Source of the DNA: Mycolicibacterium holsaticum DSM 44478 = JCM 12374
GTDB lineage: Bacteria; Actinomycetota; Actinomycetes; Mycobacteriales; Mycobacteriaceae
NCBI RefSeq assembly: GCF_019645835.1
Contig: NZ_CP080998.1
Span: 1,674,001-1,738,000, forward strand
DNA: 64,000 nucleotides
Direction of reading: 5' to 3'
Part shown: positions 1 through 30,536 of the stretch, piece after piece
How positions within the stretch are numbered: position 1 is the stretch's first letter
Layout: each line of letters opens with the position of its first letter
Translations under genes and position numbers: made by a program
Notes under the pieces: generated by a model
What the model was told of the DNA's origin: nothing
Databases searched by the model: none
What the model saw: only the letters and a program-made list of their open reading frames with translations

Positions 1-3
1 CGA

Positions 4-29
4 CCGGACGAGTTAGTGAACTCATCCGG
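4..29 (-). terminator. Hairpin at the 3' end of the DUF35 gene
   Basis: An 11-bp stem (4-14 paired with 19-29, one mismatch) around a 4-nt AGTG loop overlaps the stop codon of the minus-strand DUF35 gene. There is no T-run, so at best it is a mycobacterial-type hairpin terminator lacking a U-tract. Confidence 0.4.
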
Positions 30-495: not shown

Positions 496-524
496 ACTTA
501 ACCTAAAAAACACGACAGAGTCAA
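496..524 (-). promoter_or_regulatory. Promoter a: TTGACT-N17-TTAAGT
   Basis: On the minus strand TTGACT (524-519) and TTAAGT (501-496) are separated by exactly 17 nt, and the spacer begins with GTCGT two bases in. The predicted start point (about 489) lies some 20 nt before the DUF35 GTG. Four other promoters in the window share this layout. Confidence 0.65.
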
Positions 525-551
525 CTATTTATTTGCGGCTCGGGGGTCTAG

Positions 552-1694
552 TCAGAGCACGCGAACTTGACCCTCTAGAGCCGGAACCGTATCGGGCAGC
601 TGGTATGTCGAGATGCCGTTGCGGAACATCACGTTCTCGCGGGCGTGCTCGGGCAGATGCTTGACCAGCCAGCGCGGGTCGTCGAAGGTCCAGTGCGGGT
701 AGTCCGAGCTGTACAGCAGGATCTTGTCGCACTCCATCCATTCCAAGACCCGAATCAGTTCAGTCTTATCCTCGGGGTAATCCAGGGGTTGTGTGGTGAA
801 CTTGATGTGGTCCTTCACGTATTCAGAGGGTTTGCGTTTGATGTCGAGCCAGGACCTTCGCGCCTCGTAGATGGCGTCCATCCGCCACATCAGCGGCAGG
901 ATCCAGGTAAAGGCGTGTTCGATGAAGACGACGCGCAGCTTCGGAAAGCGATCGAACACCCCGTCGAAGATCAGACTCATCACCTGATTGGCGGCAAGTA
1001 GTGAGTAGGTGACCATGAAGTCGTGGTTGTAGCTGGGAAGACCGACCGGTGGCATCGGAAGTTCCTCGTGGTGGCCACGGCCCAGGTGGCAGCTGACCGT
1101 GATGTCGTGTTTGGTTGCCGCGGCCCAGATCGAATCGTATTTTGGATGTCCCCAGGACGGCCGAGGCTCGGCGTTGATGAGAACCTGTGCCATATAGGGG
1201 TGGCCGGCCCAGCGCTCGATCTCGCGAATGCACTCTTCCGGCTCCTCGATCGCGACGCAGATCGACCCGCGCCACCGCTGATGCCAGTTGTTGTGGCTAT
1301 CCAGCCAGTGGTTGGCTTGCCAGGTGTTGTGGGCCGAACAGATCGCGGCGGTTGCCTCGGTCAGCCGGCAACTGCCGTGGATCGGTTCGAGTATCGCGAT
1401 GTCGGCGCCGGCCTCCAGGATCAATTGTTTGAAGGCAAGATCGGGGTCGCTGCCGGCGAACTCTCCGTCGGCCGGAAATGTGTCCACCCGCATTGCGCGG
1501 GCGTGGGCATAGTCTGGAGCGTCGTAGTAGATCTGCTCGCCGACGGGTCGGCTGAGAAAGTACTTGCTACGCCACGGTTCCGGGATGTATTCCGTGAGCT
1601 CCCCGCTCCTGGGAACAGGATGCACGTCGGAGTCGACACAACGGACGGCAATGCGTTCAGCGGGTGCTCTGCGCTCAGTGTCGGTTGCAGCCAT
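552..1694 (-). CDS. Amidohydrolase-2 family metal-dependent hydrolase
   Basis: The 380-aa protein belongs to the amidohydrolase_2 (ACMSD-like) TIM-barrel family. Metal and catalytic motifs are visible in order: DSDVHP near the N-terminus, SCHLGRG in the middle, FIEHAF, and a late SSDYPHW with the conserved Asp. Family members decarboxylate or hydrolyse ring-fission and cyclic intermediates; the substrate is unknown. The ATG at 1694 is preceded by GAGGAGAG with a 4-nt gap, favouring it over an upstream in-frame codon at 1736. It lies downstream of the ferredoxin gene on the same strand, probably in one transcript. A more distant relative sits at 44451. Confidence 0.85.
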   Translation of the reverse strand: MAATDTERRAPAERIAVRCVDSDVHPVPRSGELTEYIPEPWRSKYFLSRPVGEQIYYDAPDYAHARAMRVDTFPADGEFAGSDPDLAFKQLILEAGADIAILEPIHGSCRLTEATAAICSAHNTWQANHWLDSHNNWHQRWRGSICVAIEEPEECIREIERWAGHPYMAQVLINAEPRPSWGHPKYDSIWAAATKHDITVSCHLGRGHHEELPMPPVGLPSYNHDFMVTYSLLAANQVMSLIFDGVFDRFPKLRVVFIEHAFTWILPLMWRMDAIYEARRSWLDIKRKPSEYVKDHIKFTTQPLDYPEDKTELIRVLEWMECDKILLYSSDYPHWTFDDPRWLVKHLPEHARENVMFRNGISTYQLPDTVPALEGQVRVL

Positions 1695-1752
1695 CGGACT
1701 CTCCTCGAAGCTCGAAACCCCTCGCAGTGAGCGCATTTCGCAGATCAGCGCT

Positions 1753-1995
1753 CTACTGCATTGCCTGTTCGCGATCAGACTGCTTCGCCGAGTCCGTCGA
1801 GGCCTCCTCGAGAATGATCGCCTGTTCCGGACATGACTGCGCAGCTTCGCGTATCCGCTCTTCTTGATCCGTCGGTACCACGTCGGTGACGGCCGAAGAG
1901 CTACCGTCCACTTCGCTGAGCTCGAACATGTCGGGTGCGATCATGGCGCACAGCGTGTGTCCCTGGCAGCGAGTTGGATCCACCTTCACCTTCAC
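1753..1995 (-). CDS. Small 3Fe-4S-type ferredoxin
   Basis: The 80-aa protein has Cys10, Cys16 and Cys55 (CP motif), with His13 in the place where a 4Fe-4S ferredoxin would have a second Cys (CxxHxxC...CP). This is the type that supplies electrons to mycobacterial P450s, and four P450 genes lie in the window, so that role is likely. The GTG start at 1995 has GAGGAGAA 5 nt upstream. Its promoter (2078-2106) is one of the shared TTGACT-N17-TTAGCT set. It faces the aldehyde dehydrogenase across a short divergent region. An acidic, low-complexity tail follows residue 62. Confidence 0.9.
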   Translation of the reverse strand: MKVKVDPTRCQGHTLCAMIAPDMFELSEVDGSSSAVTDVVPTDQEERIREAAQSCPEQAIILEEASTDSAKQSDREQAMQ

Positions 1996-2077
1996 GAATC
2001 TTCTCCTCAGAGCCCTCGGCCGTAGCTGCGTTCCGCCCAACGGCGAGCACTCGCCGATTCGGGTTGCCGTCTGGATC

Positions 2078-2106
2078 AGCTAACCCCAGACAGACGACCT
2101 AGTCAA
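2078..2106 (-). promoter_or_regulatory. Promoter b: TTGACT-N17-TTAGCT, with TAGTCAACTA palindrome
   Basis: On the minus strand TTGACT (2106-2101) is followed after 17 nt by TTAGCT (2083-2078), driving the ferredoxin gene. The -35 box is embedded in the palindrome TAGTCAACTA (2100-2109). The divergent aldehyde dehydrogenase gene lies about 80 nt to the right, so one site could control both directions. Confidence 0.65.
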
Positions 2107-2186
2107 CTATATATGTGTTATGGTCGCGTCCCTATCGGAGCGGGGTCGCTTCCGCGCCCTGCGCGACACTATTGCGGGAGGCGATG

Positions 2187-3683
2187 ATGCCAGCTCAGCA
2201 CGCCGTGAGCACCGGGACGGCCACTTCCCCGAGGCCGACAGCCGACCGGCGACTGCTCATCGACGGTCGATTGGTCGGAGCGGAGAACGGGCTGACATTT
2301 CCCTCGGTCAATCCCGCGAACGGTCAGGTCGTAGGGTATGCGCCCGATGCATCTGTGGCGGAGGCGGAAGGCGCCGTCGCGGCCGCTCGGCGGGCGTTCG
2401 ACCACACTGAGTGGTCGAGTGACATCGGGCTGCGCGTCCGTTGCCTCGATCAGCTGTACAAGGCCTTGTTGGAGCACAGCGAAGAGCTCAGGGAATTGAC
2501 CATCGCCGAAGTCGGTGCCACCCGGATGCTGACCGAAGGGCCACAGCTCGACAATCCGATCAAGGTGGTCGGTTACTACGCCGACCTGCTCAAGCAATAC
2601 TCGTTCGCAGAAGACCTCGGCACGGTCGAGAGCCGGGGACAGCGGCATCACCGTTGGGTGGAAAAGGAAGCAGTCGGGGTCGTTGCGGCGATCATCGCCT
2701 ACAACTACCCCAACCAACTCGCGTTGGCTAAGCTTGCTCCCGCGCTTGCGGCGGGTTGCACAGTCGTCCTCAAGGCTGCGCCGGACACGCCGCTCGTCAC
2801 GTTGGCCATCGGTGAGCTGATCGCCGAGCGCACCGAGATACCCGCCGGGGTCGTAAACGTCCTCAGTGGCGCCGATCCGCATGTCGGCGCCGTGCTGACG
2901 ACGAGTCCGGACGTCGATGCCGTGACTTTCACCGGTTCCACCGCGACCGGACGCCGGATCATGGCAGCCGGCAGTGAGACGCTCAAGAAGGTGTTCCTCG
3001 AGCTCGGCGGGAAGTCGGCGATGATCGTGCTCGACGACGCGGACTTCACCAGCGCCGCCATGATGGCCACCTTCATGATTACCTCGCATGCCGGACAAGG
3101 GTGTGCGCTGATGAGCCGAATACTGGTGCCGCATAACACTATAGACGAATTCGTCGAACTACTGACACAGAACTTCGCCATGGTCTCTTTTGGTGACCCG
3201 TCGGATCCCAACAACTACATGGGTCCACTGATCAGTGAGCGCCAGCGCGACAAGGTCGACAGTATGGTGCGGCGCGCCGTGTCGGCGGGAGCGAAGCTGG
3301 TTACCGGGGGGAACAAGGTTGATCCCGGGTTCTTCTATGAGCCCACGCTGTTGACGGATGTAGATCCAGACAGCGAGGTTGCCCAAGAGGAGGTCTTCGG
3401 ACCGGTGCTTGTGGTCATGGGCTATGACGACGACGACGATGCGGTAAGGATTGCGAACAACTCCATCTACGGGTTGTCCGGCGGCGTGTTCGGCAGCCAT
3501 GATCGTGCGGTCGCCGTGGCGCGCCGGATTCGTACCGGGACGTTGAGCATCAACGGCGGAGACTACTCGGGCCCCGATTGTCCGTTCGGCGGTTACAAAC
3601 AGTCCGGCATCGGCCGCGAAATGGGCGTCGCAGGGCTCGAGGAGTTCTTGGAGCGCAAGACTTTTGCGGTGGCGGTTCAGTGA
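2187..3683 (+). CDS. NAD(P)-dependent aldehyde dehydrogenase
   Basis: The 498-aa protein is a complete aldehyde dehydrogenase. Cofactor loop GSTATG, catalytic Glu272 in LELGGKS, nucleophile Cys306 in GQGC and the late EEVFGPV motif are all present. It should oxidise an aldehyde to an acid, which the CoA-transferase or ligase downstream could activate. The second of two adjacent ATGs (2187) is preferred because GGGAGG lies 5 nt before it; ATG 2184 is only 2 nt from it. Its stop overlaps the CoA-transferase start (GTGA). A degenerate paralogue lies at 17027. Confidence 0.93.
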   Translation: MPAQHAVSTGTATSPRPTADRRLLIDGRLVGAENGLTFPSVNPANGQVVGYAPDASVAEAEGAVAAARRAFDHTEWSSDIGLRVRCLDQLYKALLEHSEELRELTIAEVGATRMLTEGPQLDNPIKVVGYYADLLKQYSFAEDLGTVESRGQRHHRWVEKEAVGVVAAIIAYNYPNQLALAKLAPALAAGCTVVLKAAPDTPLVTLAIGELIAERTEIPAGVVNVLSGADPHVGAVLTTSPDVDAVTFTGSTATGRRIMAAGSETLKKVFLELGGKSAMIVLDDADFTSAAMMATFMITSHAGQGCALMSRILVPHNTIDEFVELLTQNFAMVSFGDPSDPNNYMGPLISERQRDKVDSMVRRAVSAGAKLVTGGNKVDPGFFYEPTLLTDVDPDSEVAQEEVFGPVLVVMGYDDDDDAVRIANNSIYGLSGGVFGSHDRAVAVARRIRTGTLSINGGDYSGPDCPFGGYKQSGIGREMGVAGLEEFLERKTFAVAVQ

Positions 3684-4885: not shown

Positions 4886-4901
4886 CGACTCGAACTTGAA
4901 G

Positions 4902-4931
4902 GTTTGTGAGAGCGATAAACTGCTCACAAAC
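4902..4931 (+). terminator. Hairpin after the ALDH/CoA-transferase pair
   Basis: A perfect 9-bp stem (4902-4910 with 4923-4931) encloses a 12-nt loop, 16 nt after the CoA-transferase stop. No T-run follows. It separates the ALDH pair from the mce promoter at 4938-4966. Confidence 0.5.
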
Positions 4932-4937
4932 AAATAG

Positions 4938-4966
4938 TTGACTCGGTCGTCTATCTGAGGTTAGCT
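4938..4966 (+). promoter_or_regulatory. Promoter c of the mce operon: TTGACT-N17-TTAGCT
   Basis: TTGACT (4938-4943), a 17-nt spacer and TTAGCT (4961-4966) match promoter b at both boxes and in the spacer core GGTCGTCT. The predicted start point is near 4973, about 55 nt before the mceA ATG. The box is preceded by AAATAG, as in promoters a and d. Confidence 0.7.
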
Positions 4967-5028
4967 AACCGCGGAACCGATAGCCGGTGGCCTACAAACT
5001 CTCGATGCCGCGGGAGGGAGAAGCGTCA

Positions 5029-6222
5029 ATGCCGCATCCTGTCGCGCGCCCAATAGCAGGCTTGGCTACCGTCGCGGCGCTGGTGGGTATCGCGGTGTTG
5101 GTTGCGCATTTGTTCAGGGGTGGGTTCACCGAAGCTGTACCGGTGACGGTGTTTTCGCCCCGTGCGGGGCTGATGATGTATCCCGACGCCAAAGTGCAGA
5201 TGCGTGGTATCCAGGTGGGCAGGGTCGACTCCATCGAGTCGTTGCCTTCGGGAAGGGCTGCGATACACCTCGCGATCGAGCCCAGCCAACTGGACATGAT
5301 CCCGTCGGATGTCGAGGTCAACATCGCCTCGACAACCGTGTTCGGCGCGAAGTTTGTGGAGTTCGTTCCGCCGGCCGGACCTTGGTCGCAAAGCCTCAAA
5401 GCAGGTCAGACACTCGATGTCGGAGATGTCACGGTTGAAATCAACACGATCTTTCAGCAGCTGTCGTCGGTGCTGTCGAAGATCGACCCGGCCAAGCTCA
5501 ATGAGACGCTTGGAGCGATTTCATCGGCCGTGAACGGACGCGGTGAACGCTTCGGCAGAACTGTCGAAGACTTCGGCGCCTTTCTCGCCGAGGTGAACCG
5601 GAGTCAATCCAACCTGGAACGGGATATCGCCGTTGCGCCGGAGGTGCTGGCAGCCTACGCCGACGGCGCCGGAAAAATTACCGATATCCTGGAGAACGCA
5701 ACGCATTTGAGTCAGGCTATCGTCGAGGAAGAGCGTGACCTCGACGCCTTTCTGGTGAGCATGACCGGTCTCGCTGACGTCGCAAGCGATGTACTCGGCG
5801 ACAACCGACAGGCGCTCACCGACGTGATGCGTCTGCTGGTCCCCACGACAGATCTCACCAACCGGTACAACGAAGCCCTCACGTGTTCCTTGCAAGGATT
5901 GCTGCCGTTGGCCAACTCCATACCCGAGTCCGTGCCCGGGGTCACGATTTCGACCGCATTCACCCTCGGCGTCGAACGGTACCGATACCCGGCGGATCTG
6001 CCCAAGGTGGCGGCGACCGGTGGGCCGCGTTGTGCGGACGTCGGCATGCCCAATCTGCCGTTCGGATCGAGGCCGCCGTTCGTGGTCGCCGATGTCGGCA
6101 CCAATCCCTGGAAGTATGGAAACCAAGGTCTGCTGTTGAATGCGGACGGCCTCAAGCAATTCCTCTTCGGACCCATCGAGGGGCCGCCGCGAAACTCGGC
6201 GCAGATCGGACAACCGGGGTGA
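5029..6222 (+). CDS. mceA: MCE family protein, first position (MceA-like)
   Basis: The 397-aa protein has an N-terminal membrane anchor (about residues 8-28), one MlaD/MCE domain (about 35-110) and a long helical region, the layout of mycobacterial Mce proteins. These form a periplasm-spanning lipid-import assembly. The ATG at 5029 is preceded by GGGAGGGAGAA; upstream in-frame starts at 4987 and 5005 lack a suitable site. It is first of six consecutive mce genes and ends in a GTGA overlap with the next. Two yrbE permease genes normally precede mceA; here the upstream gene is a CoA-transferase and no permease is present in the window. Confidence 0.9.
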   Translation: MPHPVARPIAGLATVAALVGIAVLVAHLFRGGFTEAVPVTVFSPRAGLMMYPDAKVQMRGIQVGRVDSIESLPSGRAAIHLAIEPSQLDMIPSDVEVNIASTTVFGAKFVEFVPPAGPWSQSLKAGQTLDVGDVTVEINTIFQQLSSVLSKIDPAKLNETLGAISSAVNGRGERFGRTVEDFGAFLAEVNRSQSNLERDIAVAPEVLAAYADGAGKITDILENATHLSQAIVEEERDLDAFLVSMTGLADVASDVLGDNRQALTDVMRLLVPTTDLTNRYNEALTCSLQGLLPLANSIPESVPGVTISTAFTLGVERYRYPADLPKVAATGGPRCADVGMPNLPFGSRPPFVVADVGTNPWKYGNQGLLLNADGLKQFLFGPIEGPPRNSAQIGQPG

Positions 6223-14133: not shown

Positions 14134-14142
14134 TCCGCGTGT

Positions 14143-15507: not shown

Positions 15508-15553
15508 AGCATGCTCCTTGGGTTCCCGTGTCTTCGTCAATGGCTGATGTCGA

Positions 15554-16855
15554 TCAGGCGTTCCCGATCTCGAGTTCTAGGTATTCGGCCAACTTTTTAC
15601 GGGCGGCGTCGAGCTTGGCCGGAATCCATTCGCTGGGCCACATACCTTCGCTAGGGGCGTGGTCGCGCAGGACTTGGCGTGCGACGGTTGTCTTGTGCAC
15701 CTCGGTTGGGCCGTCGACCAGTCCCATAGCGGCCGCACCATGGATCATCCTGAACAGCGGCATCTCATTGCTGACACCGAGCGCACCGTGGACTTGCATT
15801 GCGCGCCAGGCGATGTCGTGCAGCACGCCTGGCATGGTTGCCTTCACCGCGGCGATGTCCTTTCGGACCTTCTTGTAGTCGTTGTACTCGTCGATTTCCC
15901 AGGCCGTGTAGAGCACGAATAGGCGGAACTGCATCAGCTGGGCATACGAGTCGGCGATGAACCCTTGGACGAACTGCTTGTCGGACAGTTGTGTTCCCGC
16001 GGTCTCCCGGCTGAGCGCGCGCTCGCACATCATGTCGAGTGCCTGACGCGCCAGCCCGATAGTCCGCATGGCGTGGTGAATTCGTCCACCGCCGAGACGC
16101 GTTTGGGCGATCGCAAAGGCTTGTCCCTCGCCCCCGAGCAATGCTTCGGGCGGTACCCGGACGTTGTCGTAGTGGATTAGGGCGTGCGAGCCCTCGTTCA
16201 CGGGCTCACCGTAGAGGCCGACGTTGCGTTTCATCCTCACTCCAGGAGTGTCGGTGGGGACGAGGAACATCGACATACCTTGATACGGACTGACGTCCGG
16301 ATTCGTCACCACCATGACGATGAGGAACGATGAGGTCTTGGCATTGGAGGAGAAGTACTTCCAGCCGTTGATCACCCAGTCCTGCCCGTCGAGCTGTGCC
16401 TCCGTCCGGAAGCGAGTGGGATCCGCGCCGGCCTGGGGCTCGGTCATCGAGTAGCTCGAGAACATCTCCCCGTCCAGCAGGGGCTGCAGATAACGTTGCT
16501 TCTGATCTTCGGTGCCGTAGTGCGCGATGATCTCGGCGTTCCCGGTGTCAGGTGCTTGGCACCCAAACACGATGGGGGCCCACAAGGAGCGACCGAGGAT
16601 TTCGTTCAGCAAGGCCAGCTTGAGTTGGCCGTACCCTTGCCCGCCCAGTTCGGGACCGAGGTGGGTTGCCCACAGCCCTTTGCTTCGTACCTGTGCCTTG
16701 AGAGGGTCGATCGCCTTGCGCCGGGCGTCAGTGAGTGGGACGAATTCTTCGCCGGGCCACACCAGGTCCAGCGGCTCCACTTCGTCACGAACGAAGTCAT
16801 CTGCCCAATCCAACAGGTCCTGGTATTCGGGGTCTGTCCTGAAGTCCCACGCCAT
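15554..16855 (-). CDS. Acyl-CoA dehydrogenase (ACAD11/LvaC-like)
   Basis: The 433-aa flavoprotein begins MAWDFRTDPEYQ and is a clear paralogue of the dehydrogenase at 60667 (same length, long identical runs including GPELGGQGYGQLKL-like and ISCHAL-like segments). Motifs for FAD/acyl-CoA binding (MTEPQAGADP, INGWKYFSS) are intact. This subgroup includes enzymes that act with a kinase-fold partner on 4-hydroxyacyl-CoA. Unlike the 60667 copy, no kinase gene is adjacent. AGGAGG precedes the ATG at 16855 by 5 nt. The promoter lies at 16970-16998, leaving a leader of about 105 nt. Confidence 0.9.
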   Translation of the reverse strand: MAWDFRTDPEYQDLLDWADDFVRDEVEPLDLVWPGEEFVPLTDARRKAIDPLKAQVRSKGLWATHLGPELGGQGYGQLKLALLNEILGRSLWAPIVFGCQAPDTGNAEIIAHYGTEDQKQRYLQPLLDGEMFSSYSMTEPQAGADPTRFRTEAQLDGQDWVINGWKYFSSNAKTSSFLIVMVVTNPDVSPYQGMSMFLVPTDTPGVRMKRNVGLYGEPVNEGSHALIHYDNVRVPPEALLGGEGQAFAIAQTRLGGGRIHHAMRTIGLARQALDMMCERALSRETAGTQLSDKQFVQGFIADSYAQLMQFRLFVLYTAWEIDEYNDYKKVRKDIAAVKATMPGVLHDIAWRAMQVHGALGVSNEMPLFRMIHGAAAMGLVDGPTEVHKTTVARQVLRDHAPSEGMWPSEWIPAKLDAARKKLAEYLELEIGNA

Positions 16856-16969
16856 GCCGCCTCCTGCGCACAATCGCCGATTTCTTGTCAGTCGATTAGT
16901 CAGCGTGATCGTGGCTCTTGGTCTGCCGATCAGAGCACGGCCATGCGATGGATCACTGACACTTCGACA

Positions 16970-16998
16970 AGTAAATAGGGTATAACAGACCTAGTCAA
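16970..16998 (-). promoter_or_regulatory. Promoter d: TTGACT-N17-TTTACT, with TAGTCAACTA palindrome
   Basis: On the minus strand TTGACT (16998-16993) and TTTACT (16975-16970) are 17 nt apart, serving the acyl-CoA dehydrogenase gene. The palindrome TAGTCAACTA (16992-17001) again covers the -35 box. For the divergent gene at 17027 a possible -10 box TATAAC lies at 16981-16986. Confidence 0.55.
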
Positions 16999-17026
16999 CT
17001 ATTTTGAGCTTTGCCCGGGAGGTACC

Positions 17027-18974: not shown

Positions 18975-19040
18975 CCCTTGGCCGGCGCGTCGCCGAGTCG
19001 CAGCTCTTGCTTCGGCGATAACGACATCGGTATGGTCTCG

Positions 19041-19060
19041 GATTAGGCAATCGACTAATC
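19041..19060 (+). promoter_or_regulatory. Palindromic operator, copy 1 (GATTAG-N8-CTAATC)
   Basis: A 20-bp inverted repeat with 16 symmetric positions, 43 nt before the P450 start at 19104. Related copies, in the same orientation relative to the downstream gene, lie at 24207-24226 and 30537-30556. Size and symmetry fit a TetR-family operator. Confidence 0.6.
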
Positions 19061-19103
19061 ATCCGAGTTCAGTTGACGTCTGCACCGCGAGAAGGAGATC
19101 GAT

Positions 19104-20297: not shown

Positions 20298-20321
20298 ACA
20301 CACTGAATTGCACGAGGTGCC

Positions 20322-21353: not shown

Positions 21354-22362
21354 CCTCCCGAGCGAACAGCTCCATTCCGGCGTGGATGTCACGTGGTCGC
21401 ATGCCCGGCAGCGCCATGCCCGCGACCAGATGCGTTAGCCGCGCACCCGAGCGGTACTTCTCGATCTTCTCGATGACGTCCTGCGGGCTGCCCACCAGCA
21501 TGTCTCCTCCGAAGAAATCCATCGACTGTCTGCGCACGATCTCTTCGACGGAAGGCAATGCCGGCGAATCGCCGGTCGATGCGCCGTTGGCCTCCGCGTT
21601 CCATTGAAGGTAGCCGGCAGTCATGTAACGCAAGGGTTCAGCCGCGATCTCCCAAGCCTGCTGCCTCGTGGGCGCGACATAGGTCGGCAAGGTGGCGGCC
21701 ACGTGGAAGTCGGCCGGATCGCGGCCGTTCGCGCGCAGTGCATCGTCGTAGACAGCCGCCGATCCCGGCCCGCCGCTGAGGAAGTGCATGCCCATGTTGG
21801 CGGCGCGTTGGATCGCCTTCGGTGCGGTTCCGCCGATCCAGATCGGTGGGTGCGGCTTCTGCAACGCAGGTGGAGAGATCCGGATATCGTTCAGCCTGTT
21901 GTACTTTCCGTCGACCGTGACGTTCTCGCCTGAGAGGAGCCGCCGGAGGAGGGGCAGACTTTCCTGCATGCGGCTGGCCCGCTCGCGAGCCGGAATTCCC
22001 TGATCGTCGAATTCCCCGGGCCGATAGCCCAGGCCGACACCAAGGTCGAAACGGCCACCGGAGATGATGTCCAGGGTTGCGGTATCTTCGGCGACCCGGA
22101 CCGGGTTGTGCAGTGGCAACAGCAACAAGAACGTGCCGATGCGGATGCGCTCGGTGCGAGTGGCGATGGCGGCGCCGATCGGAAACAGTGACGGAGAGTA
22201 GCCGTCGTCGATGAAATGGTGCTCGGTCAGCCACGCTTCATCGAAGCCCAACTGTTCGGACTCCACGATGAGGTCGAGTTGAGAGCGGTAGAACTCGGTC
22301 CACGGCATCCGCGCCGAAGCCGGATTCCTGAACGGCCACAGAAGGCCGAACCGAAGCGTCAT
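21319..22362 (-). CDS. LLM-class flavin-dependent oxidoreductase
   Basis: The 347-aa protein has the luciferase-like TIM-barrel signature: FGLLWPF start, AWLTEHHF, RIGTFLLLLPLHNP, and GGRFDLGVGLGYRP. Members use FMN or F420 to oxidise or reduce small organic substrates; the cofactor cannot be told here. Its ATG overlaps the stop of the TetR gene at 22359 (ATGA). It appears to be the last gene of a monooxygenase-TetR-LLM operon and converges on the DapB-like gene with a 35-nt 3' overlap. Confidence 0.88.
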   Translation of the reverse strand: MTLRFGLLWPFRNPASARMPWTEFYRSQLDLIVESEQLGFDEAWLTEHHFIDDGYSPSLFPIGAAIATRTERIRIGTFLLLLPLHNPVRVAEDTATLDIISGGRFDLGVGLGYRPGEFDDQGIPARERASRMQESLPLLRRLLSGENVTVDGKYNRLNDIRISPPALQKPHPPIWIGGTAPKAIQRAANMGMHFLSGGPGSAAVYDDALRANGRDPADFHVAATLPTYVAPTRQQAWEIAAEPLRYMTAGYLQWNAEANGASTGDSPALPSVEEIVRRQSMDFFGGDMLVGSPQDVIEKIEKYRSGARLTHLVAGMALPGMRPRDIHAGMELFAREVIPYFREPKSR

Positions 22363-22970
22363 CGGCGGCTTCGGCGACGCCGGACGCGTCGCCTCCCCTC
22401 AAGCCGGCCGATGAGCCGCTCGACGACCCGGATCGCCTGCTCGTGACCGAGATCAAGGCCGTACGAACGCTCTTCACCCATGAACCTGCCGACGCCGTCC
22501 AGGAACAGCATCACCGCCTCGGCAGGCCACTGCTCGGTGTCGACGTCGTACTTGGCCAATACGTCTGTCAAACCGTCGAATTGGACCCGGCGGAACCGCA
22601 CCGAGAAGTCCTTCATCTCGTCCTTGACCGCCTGGCGGTGGTTTCCGAGGGCGAGGAACTCGAGGTTCAGCGTGGTGTTGGACTGATCGCGGATCAAGTC
22701 CCACAACGCCCACAGCGGCTGATCGGAGGCCAGCGCTTCGGCCTGGCGGCCGAGCATCCGGGCCGCACTCCGCCGGAAAACCTCGACGAAAAGGTTGTCC
22801 ATCGGACCGAAGTAGTAGTACACGAGGCCCGGATTGACCTCGGCCTCGGCGGCCACCCGGCGCGATGTCACCGCGGCGTAACCCTCGGCGAGCATGAGCC
22901 GTTCGACAGCATCGAGCAGTGCCGTCCGCGCGTCGGGCTCGTCTGCTCCGGTGGGCCGTTTCGGTGGCAT
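22359..22970 (-). CDS. TetR family transcriptional regulator
   Basis: The 203-aa protein has an N-terminal TetR helix-turn-helix (AVERLMLAEGYAAVTSRRVA, then PGLVYYYF) and an alpha-helical ligand domain; the tail is very Arg-rich. The ATG at 22970 is chosen because the codons upstream, to a possible start at 23003 that overlaps the preceding stop, have unusually low third-position GC. It lies in an operon with the HsaA-like gene, whose promoter carries the operator at 24207-24226, so it is the best candidate to bind that palindrome and control itself. Confidence 0.82.
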   Translation of the reverse strand: MPPKRPTGADEPDARTALLDAVERLMLAEGYAAVTSRRVAAEAEVNPGLVYYYFGPMDNLFVEVFRRSAARMLGRQAEALASDQPLWALWDLIRDQSNTTLNLEFLALGNHRQAVKDEMKDFSVRFRRVQFDGLTDVLAKYDVDTEQWPAEAVMLFLDGVGRFMGEERSYGLDLGHEQAIRVVERLIGRLEGRRRVRRRRSRR

Positions 22971-22999
22971 TCGAGCAACGTAACCCACCGCGCGAACGA

Positions 23000-24193
23000 T
23001 CATGTCATCCGCGCGCCGGGGTCGCCCGGCGCGAGACCCATCCCGAGCAGCCACCGGGCGTGCCGGTCCATCAACACGTCGTACTCCCCGTGCACGGCGT
23101 GGGTGGAGATCATCGCGATGTCCTGCGACATCCGGCGCAGGATGTTGTCGGATCGGTACCCGCTGGACCCGTTTCCGTCGACGAGTTCTCGCAGAGCGTC
23201 CCGGGCCGTTCGCAGAATCGTAACGCCGTGCAGTCCGTTCATCGCCTCCTGCTCGAGCGTCTGTGGGAGTCCGCCGCGAGCGACTTCGAGGGCGCCCTCA
23301 ATGGCGGCGTCGCGGACCAGATGCATGATCTGCGCGGTCTGGAACGCGTTAACCCAGCGAATCCGCGCCATGGGCCGCTCGATGCGCGGCGGACTGTTGA
23401 CCCCCGACGCCGTCCCCATCTTCTCCCGCGACATCTCGACCGCAGCGTCGAGTGCGCCGACGTAGAGCGACGAGATCGCGGTGGTCATCACCGAGAAGGG
23501 AAGTCGCATGGACTCCTCTTCGTGAAAGGTGCCCTCGTGGTCGGTCGCCGACATCATCTTGCCGAACGGCAGCGCCCAGGTGTCCGGGATGACGACGTCC
23601 TTCGCGACGATCGTGACGCTGCCAGTCGCCGCCATGGCTGCCACGTCCCAGTCGTCGATGAGTTCGAGCTGATCGCGTGGCACGATCACCCAGGACATGT
23701 CGTTGTCGACGATGACCGGTACCAGGGCGTGGGAGGCGTGCAGGATGCCAGTGGCATAGCCCCAGCGTCCGTTCACTCGCAGCGTTCCGTCGACCCGTTC
23801 GGCGGTGCCGGGGGAGGAGAGGATCGCCGCGCACCGCACCGAGGACCGGTCGGCGAACAACTCCTCCTGGACTTCGCGCGGATAGCGGCACAGGAACCAG
23901 TTGTGGAAGTTGTAGAAACCGGTGACCCACGCCGTGGAGATGTCCGCGGTGGCAATGAGTTCGACTACCTTGTTGAGTTCGTGCGGTCCCAGGCCGCAAC
24001 CACCCCACAGTTTCGGAACCACCACCGAGAAGAGGCCGGCGGCCTCCATGTCCTCGACGAGTTGGTCGTCCAGGCAGCGGTTGATCTCCATCTGATGCGC
24101 GAGGTCGCGGATTCGCGGGACGAACTCTCGTGCCGCGTCCACCACCGCCGTGCCCGAGGCCCCGGGGGTCGAGACCCGTTCCGTCACCGTCAT
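23000..24193 (-). CDS. Flavin-dependent monooxygenase, HsaA/acyl-CoA dehydrogenase-2 fold
   Basis: The 397-aa protein has the acyl-CoA dehydrogenase fold but lacks the usual CoA-site motifs. Instead it resembles group D flavin monooxygenases such as HsaA and DszC: a PRIRDLAHQMEINR start, VPKLWGGCGLGP, and a C-terminal SQDIAMISTHAVHGEYDVLMD stretch. HsaA hydroxylates the phenolic ring in steroid degradation and needs a flavin reductase; the substrate here is unknown. GAGGGGG lies 6 nt before the ATG. A palindromic operator sits 14 nt upstream. The divergent gene is an SDR. Confidence 0.82.
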   Translation of the reverse strand: MTVTERVSTPGASGTAVVDAAREFVPRIRDLAHQMEINRCLDDQLVEDMEAAGLFSVVVPKLWGGCGLGPHELNKVVELIATADISTAWVTGFYNFHNWFLCRYPREVQEELFADRSSVRCAAILSSPGTAERVDGTLRVNGRWGYATGILHASHALVPVIVDNDMSWVIVPRDQLELIDDWDVAAMAATGSVTIVAKDVVIPDTWALPFGKMMSATDHEGTFHEEESMRLPFSVMTTAISSLYVGALDAAVEMSREKMGTASGVNSPPRIERPMARIRWVNAFQTAQIMHLVRDAAIEGALEVARGGLPQTLEQEAMNGLHGVTILRTARDALRELVDGNGSSGYRSDNILRRMSQDIAMISTHAVHGEYDVLMDRHARWLLGMGLAPGDPGARMT

Positions 24194-24206
24194 AACATCC
24201 CCCTCG

Positions 24207-24226
24207 GGTTAGTCGAACGCCTAATC
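24207..24226 (-). promoter_or_regulatory. Palindromic operator, copy 2 (TTAG-N8-CTAA)
   Basis: Read on the minus strand it is GATTAGGCGTTCGACTAACC, three mismatches from copy 1. It lies 14 nt before the HsaA-like start and 57 nt from the divergent SDR start, so it could repress both. Confidence 0.6.
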
Positions 24227-24282
24227 TGGACACTACCGAGATAGTCGCACTCAGGGCAAGCGGACTTCGAACGGAGATGTGA

Positions 24283-25158: not shown

Positions 25159-25196
25159 GCGTGCCGCCGTTCTCTATGGCGGTGACGGTGAATCAG

Positions 25197-25967
25197 TCAT
25201 CGCAATACCGTGCCGCCGTCGATGTTGATCGTCTGCCCGTTCACCCAGGCGCCTTCGGCGGACATCAAGAACGCGACCATCGCCGCGATGTCGTCGACCT
25301 TCCCGACTCGGGTGCTACGCATCCGTTTGAGAGCGGCCACTTCAAGCTGGGGCCACTGCGGCGCCGAGCGAATCACTGCTGTCGCTGTCAGCCCGGGTGC
25401 GATTGCGTTGCAACGAAGTCCGTCGCGTCCCCACCGCGAAGCGACATGGCGCGTTAACGCGCAGACGCCTGCTTTCGCGGTGGCGTAAGCGGGTCGAGTG
25501 GGTTCGCCCTCGAACGCCGCGGCCGAGGCCATGTTGACGACTGCTCCGCCGCCTCGCGCAAGGAGATGGGGAATGCTGTGTTTGAGTGCCAGCAGATAGC
25601 CGCGAAGCGTTACTGTCATCGTCCGCTCCCAGACGGCGAGGTCGATGTCGAGGACATCAGTGTCGCCGGGCAGAAGGCTCATATCCGATCCGACGTTGAA
25701 CAGCAGATCCAGCCCTCCGAATTGGGCGACTGTGGTGTTGACGAGCTCAGCGACAGACTCGGGTTCGGCCAGATCGAAGTGCACCGGCGTGGCAACATCA
25801 CCGGCCGCGGTGATGTCCTGGGCAGTCGTCGTCGCACCGTCGAGGTTGACGTCGCCGACCACCACCGAACACCCTTCGGCCGCAAGGCGTCTGGCGCACG
25901 CAGCGCCGATACCGGTCGCACCTCCGGCGACAACGGCGATTTTGCCGTCAAGCCCGGCAAGGCTCAT
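25197..25967 (-). CDS. SDR family oxidoreductase
   Basis: The 256-aa classical SDR has GGATGIGAA for NAD(P) binding, Ser in NMASAAAF, and an intact YATAK catalytic motif, ending in the usual NIDGG. It should interconvert an alcohol and a ketone. Its ATG overlaps the stop of the TetR gene at 25964 (ATGA), so the regulator and this enzyme form a coupled pair. Confidence 0.9.
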   Translation of the reverse strand: MSLAGLDGKIAVVAGGATGIGAACARRLAAEGCSVVVGDVNLDGATTTAQDITAAGDVATPVHFDLAEPESVAELVNTTVAQFGGLDLLFNVGSDMSLLPGDTDVLDIDLAVWERTMTVTLRGYLLALKHSIPHLLARGGGAVVNMASAAAFEGEPTRPAYATAKAGVCALTRHVASRWGRDGLRCNAIAPGLTATAVIRSAPQWPQLEVAALKRMRSTRVGKVDDIAAMVAFLMSAEGAWVNGQTINIDGGTVLR

Positions 25968-26764
25968 TCTCGTTCACCGTCGCTCTGGTTCAATCTTTCG
26001 CGGACCCGCTCCAGGTCACCTAGCGCATCGGCAATCGTCTTCCTCAGCTGCTGGTTCTCCGCGTCGACGGCCCGTCGCTGCTGATCATGGGGCAGGATGC
26101 CGTGCAGGAACAACCCAACGCAATAACGCGTGTGCCGGTCGACCTGCTCATCGCTCAACAACACACCCCGAGCGCTCGCGTTGGCGGGACCGCCGGGAAC
26201 GAGATCGATGAATGCTTCGGCAGCCAAGGCGGCATCCTGAGCCGAGATCCCGTCCGGGCCGAGCCGTCGCCGGAACAGGTCAGCGAGATAAGCCAGGGTG
26301 GGTTCGGTGCCCCGCTGCACATTGAAGGCGCCGATCTCGGGCATGTGTCCCGAGACGGCGTTGGTTAGGCGCAGCAGGCGCAGGCCGCCGGGCCGCAGCA
26401 CGTTGGTGACCAGGATCCGTCCGATCGCAAGGAGGGTGTCCTCGATGTCGTCGGTCTCGGCAGCCTGCAGCTGCTCCACGGGGACGATCCACTCCTCGAT
26501 CGCCCTGGTGAGGGCAGCTTTGAACAAAGCTGTCTTGTCGCCGTACCGGGCGTAGACCGTGCGCTTGGCCATTCCGGCCGCAGCGGTGATCGCGTCGATA
26601 CTGGTGCGCTCGAACCCGTTCTCCAGGAACAGATCCAGCGCGGTATCGAGCAGCTGCTCATTGCTCAACGTCGGTCGACCTGGGCGGCGCTTCCGCGCGC
26701 CGGTTTCCGGGGCGCTATCCCGTCCGTCGGCGCGGGAACTTTCGATCACGATTCGATCTTCCAT
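25964..26764 (-). CDS. TetR family regulator with C-terminal coiled coil
   Basis: The 266-aa protein is long for a TetR regulator. A basic linker (GARKRRPGRPT) precedes the helix-turn-helix (SIDAITAAAGMAKRTVYARYG). After the ligand-binding domain, about 30 residues at the C-terminus (from DAENQQLRKTI) form a probable coiled coil. It probably controls its coupled SDR and perhaps the divergent LLM gene at 26928; an incomplete inverted repeat at 26817-26853 is a possible operator. Confidence 0.85.
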   Translation of the reverse strand: MEDRIVIESSRADGRDSAPETGARKRRPGRPTLSNEQLLDTALDLFLENGFERTSIDAITAAAGMAKRTVYARYGDKTALFKAALTRAIEEWIVPVEQLQAAETDDIEDTLLAIGRILVTNVLRPGGLRLLRLTNAVSGHMPEIGAFNVQRGTEPTLAYLADLFRRRLGPDGISAQDAALAAEAFIDLVPGGPANASARGVLLSDEQVDRHTRYCVGLFLHGILPHDQQRRAVDAENQQLRKTIADALGDLERVRERLNQSDGERE

Positions 26765-26816
26765 GGGAGGTCTTCCTGCGCTACAACCGGCTGGTGATTA
26801 AAACCGACATCGGTGA

Positions 26817-26871
26817 CTTTTTAGCATAAATCCCGCAAAACGTCGACTAAAAGAAACGGATGAGGTAACAA
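26817..26871 (+). promoter_or_regulatory. Candidate promoter and inverted repeat before the LLM gene
   Basis: CTTTTTAG (26817-26824) and CTAAAAG (26847-26853) form an imperfect inverted repeat with a 22-nt spacer. On the plus strand TCGACT (26843-26848) and TAACAA (26866-26871) are 17 nt apart, a plausible promoter for the gene at 26928. The -35 box overlaps the right half of the repeat. Confidence 0.4.
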
Positions 26872-26927
26872 TTGGTACCAGCCAAACTGTCGGCGGGCGG
26901 CCGCCACGAACGAACTGGAGAGAGACC

Positions 26928-27986
26928 ATGAAGGTCGGCATGCATCTGGGTTATCAGAACCTCCACGGCGTCCCCGACGTCGAGAGCTTCATGAAGGAGT
27001 CGAAGCTCGGCGTGGAAGCTGAAGCCATGGGCTTCGACTACGTCGGCCCCGTCGAGCACCACTTCACCGACTACGGGGCCTGCCCTGATCCCTTCCAACT
27101 GCTCTCTTGGGTGGCCGCCAAGACCAAGACGATCAATTTGGTCACCGCCGCAGTCATCCTGCCTTGGAACAACCCGCTGCGCGTCGTGGAACAGGCGATC
27201 GAACTCGATATCCTGTCCGAAGGCCGCCTGATTCTGGGCTTTGGCCGAGGCGCCGCGCGCCGTGAATTCCGTTCCTTCGGGGTAGAACTCGCCGACTCCC
27301 GCGAGATGTTCGACGAGGCAGCGGTCATCATCATGGAGGGCGTTGAGACCGGAATCGTCGAAGCCGACACCAAGTGGTATCAGATCCCTCGCACCGAGAT
27401 CCGCCCTCGCCCCTTCAAGTCCTTCAAAGACCGGACCATCATGGTGACGATGTCACCAAGTTCGGTAGACGTCGCAGCCAGATTCGGGCTCAAGGCGCTA
27501 CGCTTCTCCCAGGGAGACTGGCGCAATGCCATTCCCGAAATCACCCAGTACCGGGCCAATTTCAAGGCGTTGCACAACAAGACTGCGCCGCCGTTCATCA
27601 TCTCCGACTTCGTCTGCTGCTTCAACGATAAGCAGCGAGTCGCCGACTACACCGACAACTACTTCGCCAAGATGTTCTCCACCGTCGCCAACCACTACGA
27701 GTTCATGAGCGATCACTTCAAGGATCTGCCGTCGTACGCGGCCTGGACCGCCATGGGGCAGGCGGCTGCAGAAGCCGGCGGACCGGAGAAGGCCTATCGC
27801 GACTACATCTCGGGAAACATGATCGGCACGCCCGAGGAACTCGTCGAGCATCACCGCGTCCGCAAAGAGATGGTCGGCGACTACGAGATGCTCGCCAACT
27901 TCAGTTGGGGCGGGATGCCATACGAGCTGGTCTACGAGCAGCTCAAGCTGTTCGCCGACAAAGTTCTGCCTGACTTGAAGGGCTGA
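26928..27986 (+). CDS. LLM-class flavin-dependent oxidoreductase (monooxygenase-like)
   Basis: The 352-aa protein has the bacterial luciferase-like fold: MKVGMHLGYQN start, DYVGPVEHHF, TAAVILPWNNPLR, and RLILGFGRGAARREF. This looks like the FMN-using monooxygenase side of the family rather than the F420 dehydrogenases, but that is inference. GAGAGAG precedes the ATG. It is followed after 29 nt by a nitroreductase-fold gene that could reduce flavin for it. Confidence 0.87.
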   Translation: MKVGMHLGYQNLHGVPDVESFMKESKLGVEAEAMGFDYVGPVEHHFTDYGACPDPFQLLSWVAAKTKTINLVTAAVILPWNNPLRVVEQAIELDILSEGRLILGFGRGAARREFRSFGVELADSREMFDEAAVIIMEGVETGIVEADTKWYQIPRTEIRPRPFKSFKDRTIMVTMSPSSVDVAARFGLKALRFSQGDWRNAIPEITQYRANFKALHNKTAPPFIISDFVCCFNDKQRVADYTDNYFAKMFSTVANHYEFMSDHFKDLPSYAAWTAMGQAAAEAGGPEKAYRDYISGNMIGTPEELVEHHRVRKEMVGDYEMLANFSWGGMPYELVYEQLKLFADKVLPDLKG

Positions 27987-28015
27987 GTTCGCAGTGGTCT
28001 GTCGGACCGACTGCG

Positions 28016-28654
28016 GTGAAACTGAATCTTTCTGTCGATGAGGTGCTCTCGACGACCAGGGGGGTGGGGCAGCGACTCGACGTGACGCGGCCGGTGTCGC
28101 GTGCGGTGCTTGAAGAGTGCCTCGAGTTCGCGCTGCAGGCACCCAACGGCGCGAACCGCAACGAGTGGCGCTGGATCATCGTCGACGACAGAGCCATGGT
28201 AGCCAAGGTGGCAGCGGAATACCGAGCCGCGATGGATTTTTACCAGCAAGGCCAAGTCGGCAAGCCGGCATTGACCGATGGGGTGCCGGAAGGCGACAAG
28301 ATCACGGCATCGGCTTTCGCCCTCGCCGACAAACTGCATCAGATGCCGGCGATCCTCATACCCCTGATGCCTGGCCGGCCGGAGGGCAGGACCGTTGTCG
28401 AGCAGTCTCCGATGTGGGGTTCGATCCTTCAGGCGGTCTGGAGTTTCCTGCTCGCCCTGCGTGAGCGCGGTCTTGGCTCGGCGTGGACCACAGTCTCCTC
28501 GCGGCGGGAGCCTGAAATCGCCCAGATACTCGGCATTCCCCACGATCGCTACACACAAGTGGGAATGTTTCCGATCGCCTACACGATCGGCACCGACTTC
28601 AAGAAGGGCTATCGCAAGCCAATCTCGGAAGTCCTGACCTACAACAGTTTCTGA
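28016..28654 (+). CDS. Nitroreductase family protein
   Basis: The 212-aa protein has the FMN-dependent nitroreductase pattern: an N-terminal helix with STTRGVGQRLD, the APNGANRNEWRW phosphate-binding segment and the GLGSAWTT segment near residue 160. Members reduce nitro groups, quinones or flavins, or catalyse aromatising reactions. The start at GTG 28016 has only a weak ribosome site. It lies directly after the LLM gene and ends at a hairpin shared with the convergent SDR. Confidence 0.82.
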   Translation: MKLNLSVDEVLSTTRGVGQRLDVTRPVSRAVLEECLEFALQAPNGANRNEWRWIIVDDRAMVAKVAAEYRAAMDFYQQGQVGKPALTDGVPEGDKITASAFALADKLHQMPAILIPLMPGRPEGRTVVEQSPMWGSILQAVWSFLLALRERGLGSAWTTVSSRREPEIAQILGIPHDRYTQVGMFPIAYTIGTDFKKGYRKPISEVLTYNSF

Positions 28655-28657
28655 ACA

Positions 28658-28681
28658 GCGCGGACCGCGATCGGTCTGCGC
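28658..28681. terminator. Hairpin between convergent genes
   Basis: A 10-bp stem (28658-28667 with 28672-28681, one G-U type pair) around the loop CGAT lies 4 nt after the nitroreductase stop and 10 nt before the convergent SDR stop. It could end transcription from both sides. No T-run. Confidence 0.45.
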
Positions 28682-28690
28682 CCCGCCCGA

Positions 28691-29584
28691 TTACTGCCCG
28701 GGACCGTTGGGCCATTTGATCAGAGTGCCCGCATCGATCGGAATACTGGTTCCGGTCATGTGTTTCGACTCATCCGACGCCAGGAAGAGCACCAGCTCGG
28801 CGACGTCTTCGGGTTCGATCCACGCGGTGGGCAGGGCGTGATAGAACTCCGAGGCGGGTTGGAAGTCGGCTCTGCTGACGGGACCTTCCAGGTCAGGGCG
28901 AAAGACCTGGTAGATGCCATCGTTGTTCATCAGATGGGTGTTGCAGTTGGTCGGATGCACGACATTGACTCGGATTCCAGTCGGCGCCAGATGTAGTGCC
29001 ATCTGCTGGGTATAGCCGACCAACGCCTGCTTCGACCAGCTGTACCCGGCGCCGCCAGGCCCCATGATGACGCGAGGATCGGCGGTCACGCTGAAGCTGC
29101 CTGGGAGCAGCGCCGCCGTGGACCCGGTGATGACGATCGACGCCCCAGTGCCCGCGGGCAAAAGGTACGGTACTGATACCGCCAACGTGTTCATCACGCC
29201 GATGAGATCGACGTCGACGGCATCTTGGAAGTCCAGCGGCTGGGGGTCACCCATGGCCATCGGAAGGATGCCGGCATTGGCCATAACCGTGGTGAGTTGG
29301 CCGAGCTGGGCCAATCCGTCCGCCAGTGCGTCGGCGAGTTGCTCGCGTTGACGAACGTCGGCCTTGGCCGTCACGCAGGCCCGACCCTCCTTTTCGACGA
29401 GGCGTTTTGTCTCCCCGAGGTCATCCCAGCTGGCCATGGGGTAGGGGTTCGACTCGATGTCCTCGCAGATATCGATCGCGATGATGTCGGCACCTTCGCG
29501 GGCCTGTAACACCGCGTGTGCACGGCCCTGGCCGCGGCCGGCGCCGGTGATGAACGAGACCTTCCCCGCCATGCGTCCTGCCAT
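28691..29584 (-). CDS. Mycofactocin-type SDR family oxidoreductase
   Basis: The 297-aa SDR belongs to the mycofactocin-coupled subfamily: MAGKVSFITGAGRGQGRAHA start, IIAIDIC motif, an insertion after the first strand, the YSWSK catalytic motif, and the HPTNCNTHLMNN segment seen in its relatives at 32242 and 54416. Such enzymes hold NAD(H) without release and pass electrons to mycofactocin. ATG 29584 has GGAGGA 3 nt upstream, ruling out a longer frame. It is the second gene of a two-SDR transcript from promoter e. Confidence 0.88.
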   Translation of the reverse strand: MAGRMAGKVSFITGAGRGQGRAHAVLQAREGADIIAIDICEDIESNPYPMASWDDLGETKRLVEKEGRACVTAKADVRQREQLADALADGLAQLGQLTTVMANAGILPMAMGDPQPLDFQDAVDVDLIGVMNTLAVSVPYLLPAGTGASIVITGSTAALLPGSFSVTADPRVIMGPGGAGYSWSKQALVGYTQQMALHLAPTGIRVNVVHPTNCNTHLMNNDGIYQVFRPDLEGPVSRADFQPASEFYHALPTAWIEPEDVAELVLFLASDESKHMTGTSIPIDAGTLIKWPNGPGQ

Positions 29585-29609
29585 GAATCCTCCTGTGCGG
29601 TGGGAAACT

Positions 29610-30374
29610 TCAGAGTGTACGGAACAGGCCGCCGTCGACAAGCACCTGCGCACCGTTGATATACCCGGCGGCATCGCTGGCCAGGAACACGCATAGGCCG
29701 ACCAAATCCTGTGGCACGCCAATTCGCTTCATGGGGTTGATCGCAGCCGCGGCGGCCTGGCCCTCGGCGCCCCACGCCTTCGACATATCGGTGTCGAATG
29801 CACCGGGCATCACAAGATTGGCGCGCACCTTCGGCGCCCATGCTCCGGCCAGCGCCAGCGTCAGCGCGTTCAACCCCGCCTTCGCCATGGCATACGGAAG
29901 GTCGGCTGCGTCGGGACGCAGGGTCCCCGCAGATGTCACGTTGATGATCGATCCACCATCGGCCTCTGCCATTCGGGTGCCGAAGAGAGCCGATAGGCGG
30001 AACGGTCCACGGGCGTTGACGGCCTGAACCTTGTCGTAGAGCTCTTGGGTCACCGTCGTCAGATTGTCGTAAACCGGCGACATCCCTGCGTTGTTCACCA
30101 GTACGTCGCAGCGACCAAACGTCTCGTAGACCGTCTCGAACAGGGCATCCGCGTCCTCCCACCGTCCGACGTGGCAGGCGAACGGTAGCGCACGTCGGTT
30201 GGTACTGGCCTCGATCTCCTTGGCAGTCAGTCGGCAATTCTCCAGCTTGCGACTTGCGATGACGACTTCTGCACCTGCCTCCGCGAAGCCTTGGGCGACG
30301 GCACGTCCGATTCCGGTGCTACCGCCGGTGATCACCACGACCTTGCCCGTCAGATCCAGCAATTCAGTCAACAT
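29610..30374 (-). CDS. SDR family oxidoreductase
   Basis: The 254-aa classical SDR has TGGSTGIGRAV, NNAGMSP, Ser in NVTSAGT and the intact YAMAK motif, ending in VDGG. It should act on an alcohol/ketone pair. It leads a two-SDR transcript (25 nt to the next gene). Its promoter at 30469-30497 is one of the shared TTGACT-N17-TTAGCT set, with a leader of about 90 nt. Confidence 0.9.
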   Translation of the reverse strand: MLTELLDLTGKVVVITGGSTGIGRAVAQGFAEAGAEVVIASRKLENCRLTAKEIEASTNRRALPFACHVGRWEDADALFETVYETFGRCDVLVNNAGMSPVYDNLTTVTQELYDKVQAVNARGPFRLSALFGTRMAEADGGSIINVTSAGTLRPDAADLPYAMAKAGLNALTLALAGAWAPKVRANLVMPGAFDTDMSKAWGAEGQAAAAAINPMKRIGVPQDLVGLCVFLASDAAGYINGAQVLVDGGLFRTL

Positions 30375-30468
30375 CTACTTGGCTCATCGGTTCTTCGCTC
30401 CGGTTCCGCAGAGACGCGAGTATTGGTGTGGCACTGGCGAGTAATTAAGTCGCCTAGATCCCGCTGCT

Positions 30469-30497
30469 AGCTAAGCGTAGATGTACGACTGAGTCAA
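30469..30497 (-). promoter_or_regulatory. Promoter e: TTGACT-N17-TTAGCT
   Basis: On the minus strand TTGACT (30497-30492), a 17-nt spacer containing GTCGT and TTAGCT (30474-30469) reproduce promoters b and c exactly at both boxes. It serves the SDR pair at 28691-30374. Confidence 0.7.
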
Positions 30498-30536
30498 CTG
30501 TTCTTTGCAAGCCAGCGCGTTTCCAGTACCTTTGCA

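Follow-up and report, generated by a model that had tools for sequence, protein, structure and literature searches.

Five promoter-region sites in a Mycolicibacterium holsaticum gene cluster and their candidate regulator, a tandem double GntR protein

Within a 64,000-nucleotide stretch of Mycolicibacterium holsaticum DSM 44478 = JCM 12374 (NZ_CP080998.1, positions 1,674,001 to 1,738,000; hereafter the window, with its first letter as position 1), five sites upstream of different genes share the hexamer TTGACT and a second box 17 nucleotides (nt) further on. Are these sites members of a promoter class or operators of one regulator and, in the latter case, which gene encodes that regulator? A reading made from the letters alone (the sequence-only reading) had proposed that one regulator controls the whole left block of the window, binding over the -35 box. 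Genome comparison shows that the motif is confined to the cluster, is conserved at corresponding promoters and is present where the gene of a double GntR protein is present, and to that extent the proposal stands. On these comparative grounds we consider it likely that the five sites are operators of this dedicated local regulator, a tandem double protein of the GntR/FadR type.

The sites and the motif they share

The five sites (Table 1) are real and not chance occurrences. They lie where the sequence-only reading had placed them and on the strands it gave, TTGACT and the 17-nt gap are present in all, and the second boxes of sites 1 to 5 read TTAAGT, TTAGCT, TTAGCT, TTTACT and TTAGCT; the genes it assigned to them (DUF35, ferredoxin, mce, acyl-CoA dehydrogenase, SDR pair) are likewise those found downstream. 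The window holds five matches against 0.04 expected in dinucleotide shuffles, and none of 100 shuffles gave five, a figure that flatters the sites in that the pattern was shaped on those same sites. Across the whole 5.62-Mb genome the pattern TTGACTNNGTC-N12-TTNRNT has five matches, which are the five sites (control 0), and TAGTTGACTNNGTCGT-N10-TTAGCT with up to three mismatches has four, all within the window, site 4 being missed because it is too divergent for that pattern. Start codons in this genome follow the sites at a distance of at least 27 nt. A weak sixth site (G000:C1:1669213-1669229, or -4787..-4771 in window numbering; two core mismatches) lies directly before a gene of 135 amino acids (aa), the ortholog of which has a core site directly before it in M. 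pinniadriaticum and in genome G102; in M. nebraskense a core site stands before another gene upstream of the ortholog. A second TTGACT at window position 30547-30552 (+), with AAATAG just after it (TTTGACTAAATAGG) and a gene start nearby at about 30567, is a broken-up look-alike of the core.

Alignment of the sites yields a near-invariant core, AAATAGTTGACTmGGTC (noted as AAATAGTTGACT), usually followed by a second half, gtCTrTCTgcGGTTAGCT (noted as GGTTAGCT). The shared architecture is therefore longer than had been described, AAA before and GGTC after TTGACT being nearly as constant as the hexamer itself, and the palindrome TAGTTGACTA/TAGTCAACTA that had been placed on the -35 box is complete in two sites, although as read from the sequence it is imperfect (8 of 10 positions). 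A matrix was built from 28 sites, excluding the match in a Deinococcales metagenome-assembled genome (MAG; G152), and 37 sites score above 16; this set is distinct from the 37 core sites with at most one mismatch that are also used below. The best scores in ten 94-kb Markov simulations were 20.3 and 14.1 in two and no higher than 8 in the remaining eight, and lone sites below about 25 were therefore counted only with support from another genome. Conservation among the 37 matrix sites covers most columns between -3 and 31; outside this range, beyond -4 and 31, no column exceeds about 0.4 bits. Columns -3 to 0 played no part in selecting the sites. Such restriction of conservation to about -3..31 points to a selected element and not to recent duplication.

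TTGACT is a classic -35 box, and promoters of the sigma-70 class join TTGACW to TANNNT about 17 nt downstream. TTnnnT stands exactly 17 nt after TTGACT in 25 of the 37 core sites and is missing in 12, of which four retain TT and lack only the last T. Where a second box is present it is TTAnnT instead of TANNNT, with T at the first position in 34 of 37 matrix sites and at the second in 36. TATAC occurs 8 nt after TTGACT in four of the 12 sites without a second box and also in site 4 of M. holsaticum, so that the promoter register seems variable while the core stays. Because the AAAT and GGTC flanks persist where the second box is missing, TTGACT appears to act mainly as an operator element and only secondarily as a promoter element, and the promoter side of the sequence-only reading is accordingly its less supported part. 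Site 4 is of another subtype, with TGTTATAC following GGTC. Its TTTACT is probably not a genuine second box, since the counterparts in Mycobacterium sp. IS-1590, Mycobacterium sp. OTB74 and M. tusciae have no TTnnnT.

Among 148 genomes of the genus, TTGACTNNGTC-N12-TTNRNT occurs in seven, with five matches each in M. holsaticum (G000) and G018 and single matches in G009, G075, G088, G102 and G108; the match in G102 was retained and the other four were judged chance by their flanks. At up to two mismatches the motif has 11 matches in three of these genomes (G000, G018, G102), and the reversed control has three in two others. Presence at hundreds of unrelated promoters, the outcome named in advance as fatal to the proposal, was thus not observed, and with the confinement in the own genome and in the 148 genomes of the genus the idea of a general promoter class was rejected. 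A scan of one genome per species (84,980 species) with AGTTGACTNNGTCG-N10-GTTAGNT gave 16 matches on 14 stretches: five in M. pinniadriaticum, three in M. nebraskense, two each in M. palauense and IS-1590, and one each in M. tusciae, OTB74, Nocardia miyunensis and the Deinococcales MAG. All except the last (15 of 16) fall in six named Mycobacterium or Mycolicibacterium genomes and the Nocardia; the lone open reading frame (ORF) called on the 3.1-kb contig of the MAG had no match in the M. holsaticum cluster.

Regions of the motif genomes were fetched, and ORFs were called and compared with the M. holsaticum cluster; the calling was crude and missed genes, among them thiolase and DUF35 genes that were recovered by tblastn. 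Over ten genomes (the eight of the scan, M. holsaticum and G102) the sites of most mycobacteria are grouped within tens of kilobases, those of M. pinniadriaticum being on three contigs, and the Nocardia and the MAG have one site each. In a search of ten genomes, G005 (below) among them, the core alone at up to two mismatches has 52 matches versus 5 for the reversed pattern. When no more than one mismatch is allowed 37 core sites remain, and 34 of these share their stretch with orthologs of M. holsaticum cluster genes. The remaining three belong to M. pinniadriaticum: two stand in tandem upstream of a P450 gene on contig 34 (G148:C34:45550-45595, 29 base pairs (bp) apart, without the TTAGCT half) and one upstream of an aldehyde dehydrogenase gene on contig 46, and close relatives of both genes (78% and 84%, respectively) are found on the cluster contig of M. 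nebraskense.

Conservation holds promoter by promoter. Apart from M. holsaticum itself, the DUF35 promoter has its site in M. nebraskense, M. pinniadriaticum, G102, IS-1590, OTB74 and M. tusciae; the ferredoxin promoter in M. nebraskense, M. palauense, IS-1590, OTB74 and M. tusciae, and weakly in G102; the SDR pair in M. pinniadriaticum, IS-1590, OTB74, M. tusciae and M. nebraskense (at 49765); and the mce promoter in M. pinniadriaticum and IS-1590. The site before the acyl-CoA dehydrogenase and P450 genes recurs as the site-4 subtype in IS-1590 and M. tusciae, and in OTB74 this subtype stands before the P450 gene alone, the region read there lacking that dehydrogenase. In M. pinniadriaticum the cluster is scattered over several contigs, and the sites travel with the genes.

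The double GntR gene and its company

The candidate regulator gene (G000:C1:1671285-1672898, or -2715..-1102) stands immediately left of the window and is the second gene beyond the DUF35 gene of site 1, in a same-strand run of DUF35, thiolase and double GntR genes that leaves the window; this first operon extends on the same strand to about -7.3 kb. Its product of 537 residues has two stretches each of Pfam PF00392 and PF07729 above the curated cut-offs in all four copies scanned (the M. holsaticum protein and three orthologs, of 11 full-length copies), with the winged helix-turn-helix followed by the FCD domain as in GntR/FCD regulators. A single unit would be about 240-260 residues; this protein has two units, its N- and C-terminal halves being 28% identical, and it is therefore filed as a variant of the FadR (FCD) subfamily. 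SRxTLREALRILE occurs in both winged helices of 10 of the 11 aligned copies, the second copy of G102 having one change in each. Searches of open-licence PMC text yielded no published description of this regulator or of its operator.

The gene is present at full length in all nine motif genomes searched (Deinococcales MAG excluded), the other eight at 67-87% identity to that of M. holsaticum. Two full-length copies stand within one cluster in G102 (C1:3647565-3649178 and 3675954-3677474; 71% identical) and in M. palauense (G149:C2:63483-65090 and 72969-74486; 66% identical). Among the 148 genomes of the genus, with the best 9 candidates scored per genome, the double GntR gene was found in G000, G018 and G102, while G005 had a fragment of it at a contig edge and G067 a distant match; in 397 genomes of the order, with the best 3 candidates per genome, it was seen in G000 and G102 only. 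The hypergeometric p for co-occurrence of motif and gene over the 148 genomes is about 8e-6, and 3e-4 if G000 is left out, kinship being ignored in both. G005, chosen by the protein alone, has a perfect core site (C384:2164-2180), with an SDR ORF and then the double GntR fragment downstream of it on the same strand.

In ten of ten genomes the double GntR gene is downstream of a site on the same strand. In M. holsaticum, IS-1590, M. tusciae, OTB74, M. nebraskense, M. pinniadriaticum and G102, DUF35 and thiolase genes stand between the site and the double GntR gene; for one of the two M. palauense copies the intervening genes are ferredoxin, P450, DUF35 and thiolase, and in G005 there is the SDR. 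In the Nocardia the gene follows directly, the one strong site lying 37 nt before the double GntR ORF, and the 40 kb read there contain matches at 60% or more to four genes of the M. holsaticum cluster: the double GntR gene, an amidohydrolase and the SDR pair.

Fit to the candidate operator, proposed regulation and rival explanations

According to PMC4494728, GntR motifs have GT..AC boxes, with a 2-nt gap in some FadR-type groups and extra boxes 7-12 nt from the centre in many groups. Within the core, the GT and AC of AGTTGACT are separated by 2 nt in 36-37 of the 37 matrix sites, a count that was partly a selection criterion, and a GGTC box lies 7 nt from its centre. Along the operator the boxes are GT at 2-3, AC at 6-7, GT at 11-12 and GT at 25-26. 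The FadR-subfamily regulators NanR, PdhR, LldR and GlcC are like each half of the double protein in joining a GntR winged helix to an FCD domain, and operators of this subfamily resemble the predicted one in combining a GT-nn-AC box with an extra GT box (PMC4494728). An ordinary member carries a single unit (length 239-263 in the NanR, LldR and PdhR chains or models) and recognises a palindrome or a direct repeat, whereas here two units are fused and the predicted operator is asymmetric.

The closest working analogue may be Mce3R of Mycobacterium tuberculosis, described in PMC11667970 as an autoregulated double TetR-family repressor of an mce lipid regulon with 25-bp asymmetric operators. The likeness is in two DNA-binding domains on one chain and in an mce-containing lipid cluster; the difference is that Mce3R consists of two TetR units and the 537-aa protein of two GntR-FCD units, and the domain scan of the latter gave no TetR match, which separates it from the Mce3R type. 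The comparison concerns working only, and no sequence kinship is claimed. Two adjacent, separate genes of GntR-FCD type occur in G067 (C36:400458-401996; 245 and 256 aa) and on the Mycobacterium branderi plasmid NZ_AP022607 (L200:5965-7596), the latter annotated FCD and GntR and neighboured by CoA-transferase, F420-type, amidohydrolase and ligase genes. Both pairs are collinear with the double protein at 32-34% identity but encode two separate proteins, and the 13 kb around the G067 pair contain no match to the operator matrix. Fusion of such an adjacent pair would be the simplest origin of the double protein, and the unfused pairs could represent its precursor. A fuller version, that the double GntR-FCD protein is a pseudo-dimer with two non-identical winged helices reading an asymmetric multi-box operator, and thus a GntR counterpart of Mce3R that evolved independently by adjacent-gene fusion, we hold to be evenly balanced between right and wrong.

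We propose that the double GntR protein binds the core through the GntR-type GT-TG-AC box and additional GT boxes, over every operon's promoter. One of these operons contains the gene of the protein itself, which would make it autoregulated. RNA polymerase would be blocked as long as the FCD domains are empty; their occupation by a pathway intermediate, either a carboxylate or an acyl-CoA, would jointly derepress mce import, acyl-CoA dehydrogenase, ferredoxin/P450, DUF35-thiolase and SDR functions. Binding, repression, autoregulation and ligand are all inferred here; occlusion is the favoured mode because site 1, 27 nt before its GTG, leaves room for a promoter only over itself. If this is correct, a promoter likeness becomes a defined regulon with a candidate regulator and a precise operator, and it would suggest that in mycobacteria the fusion of two regulator units into one that reads asymmetric operators happened on more than one occasion (TetR in Mce3R, GntR here), each time for control of an mce-linked lipid pathway.

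Assignment to the double GntR protein must be tempered by several observations that weigh against it. The cluster is co-inherited, and co-occurrence alone cannot separate the double GntR gene from other cluster genes. The base before the gap in the operator GTTGAC departs from the FadR-type consensus, which has A or C there (PMC4494728). The strongest dyad within the motif is GAC-N3-GTC (centre 9), which is not the GntR box. G005 has no site at stricter thresholds (the motif search at up to two mismatches and the matrix threshold), and promoter overlap is the one ground for preferring repression over activation. Finally, in M. nebraskense (49765) and M. pinniadriaticum (C53:26491) a site lies between the operon of a cluster TetR and the divergent SDR pair.

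The last arrangement suits the main rival, in which the five sites would be read by this cluster TetR (gene at 22359-23054), with the symmetric 25-bp element AnATAGnnGACnnnGTCnnCTATnT as an operator of the TetR type. A TetR could also favour a dyad centred between GAC and GTC, orthologs of this TetR at 74-86% are present in six of the eight other motif genomes (7 of 9 with M. holsaticum), and among the 148 genomes of the genus an ortholog above 50% was found in G000 and G018 only, with the best 21 candidates considered per genome. G102, however, has sites and no ortholog of this TetR (best 43%); in the Nocardia the site precedes the double GntR gene, the TetR being represented there only by a 52% homolog on another contig; and in M. 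holsaticum no site was found before the TetR operon itself. This TetR was accordingly set aside as first-choice regulator, and we regard it as an unlikely owner of the operators.

The assignment to the double GntR protein has a variant, counted within its probability, in which the protein is mainly an activator that aids RNA polymerase at a poor -10 box (TTAGCT). The unusual form of the -10-like box, with its two leading Ts, is what a promoter needing help might have. The site overlaps the -35, spacer and -10 region instead of lying upstream, and regulators of the FadR type in such a position are usually repressors; the variant is improbable. Least probable is that a sigma factor, housekeeping or alternative, simply reads a strong promoter of the form TTGACT-17-TTAnnT with no dedicated operator: the -35 box, the spacing of the second box and the distance to the start codons agree with it, but all five genome matches are in one cluster, the near-invariant flanks are not needed by sigma, 12 of 37 core sites lack the second box, and the second base of that box is T in place of A.

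Cluster content and minor features

Gene families of the cluster comprise a DUF35/ChsH2-type protein, lipid-transfer-type thiolase, acyl-CoA dehydrogenases, FadD-type ligase, CaiB-type CoA-transferase, aldehyde dehydrogenases, P450s with ferredoxin, F420/luciferase-type enzymes, SDRs and mce genes. Such a content suggests uptake and CoA-dependent breakdown of a hydrophobic acid, perhaps steroid- or terpenoid-like.

Table 1. Candidate operator sites and associated genes, in window coordinates
Feature	Position	Strand	Remark
Operator/promoter site 1	496..530	-	Upstream of DUF35 gene
Operator/promoter site 2	2078..2112	-	Upstream of ferredoxin and amidohydrolase; matrix score 51.6
Operator/promoter site 3	4932..4966	+	Upstream of mce genes; matrix score 53.2
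Operator site 4 (core only; TGTTATAC subtype)	16970..17004	-	Upstream of acyl-CoA dehydrogenase and P450
Operator/promoter site 5	30469..30503	-	Upstream of SDR pair
DUF35 / ChsH2-type OB-fold protein	22..468	-	Begins with GTG, preceded by a good Shine-Dalgarno sequence; site 1 ends 27 nt before it
Amidohydrolase	552..1736	-	
Ferredoxin	1753..1995	-	
First mce gene (MlaD/Mce4_CUP1)	5029..6222	+	
Acyl-CoA dehydrogenase	15554..16855	-	
SDR, first of pair	29610..30374	-	
SDR, second of pair (ORF)	28691-29722	-	

Neither the KstR2-type nor the longer KstR-type string has a match in the window; the bare AAC-N2-GTT core has 11, as expected of short strings. Besides the TetR gene discussed above, TetR genes are found at 25964-26764, 35349-36098 and 55417-56028. 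The first of these was rejected as first-choice regulator of the five sites: matches with E no worse than 1e-30 are present in 7 of 9 genomes (M. holsaticum included), but the figure in the Nocardia is only 40%. That at 35349-36098 was likewise rejected as first choice, being near full length in 3 of 9 genomes over the regions read. Between the TetR gene at 25964-26764 and a divergent luciferase-type gene (window 26765-26927), a different dyad, TTTTAG ... CTAAAA, was seen by eye and is perhaps the operator of that TetR itself.

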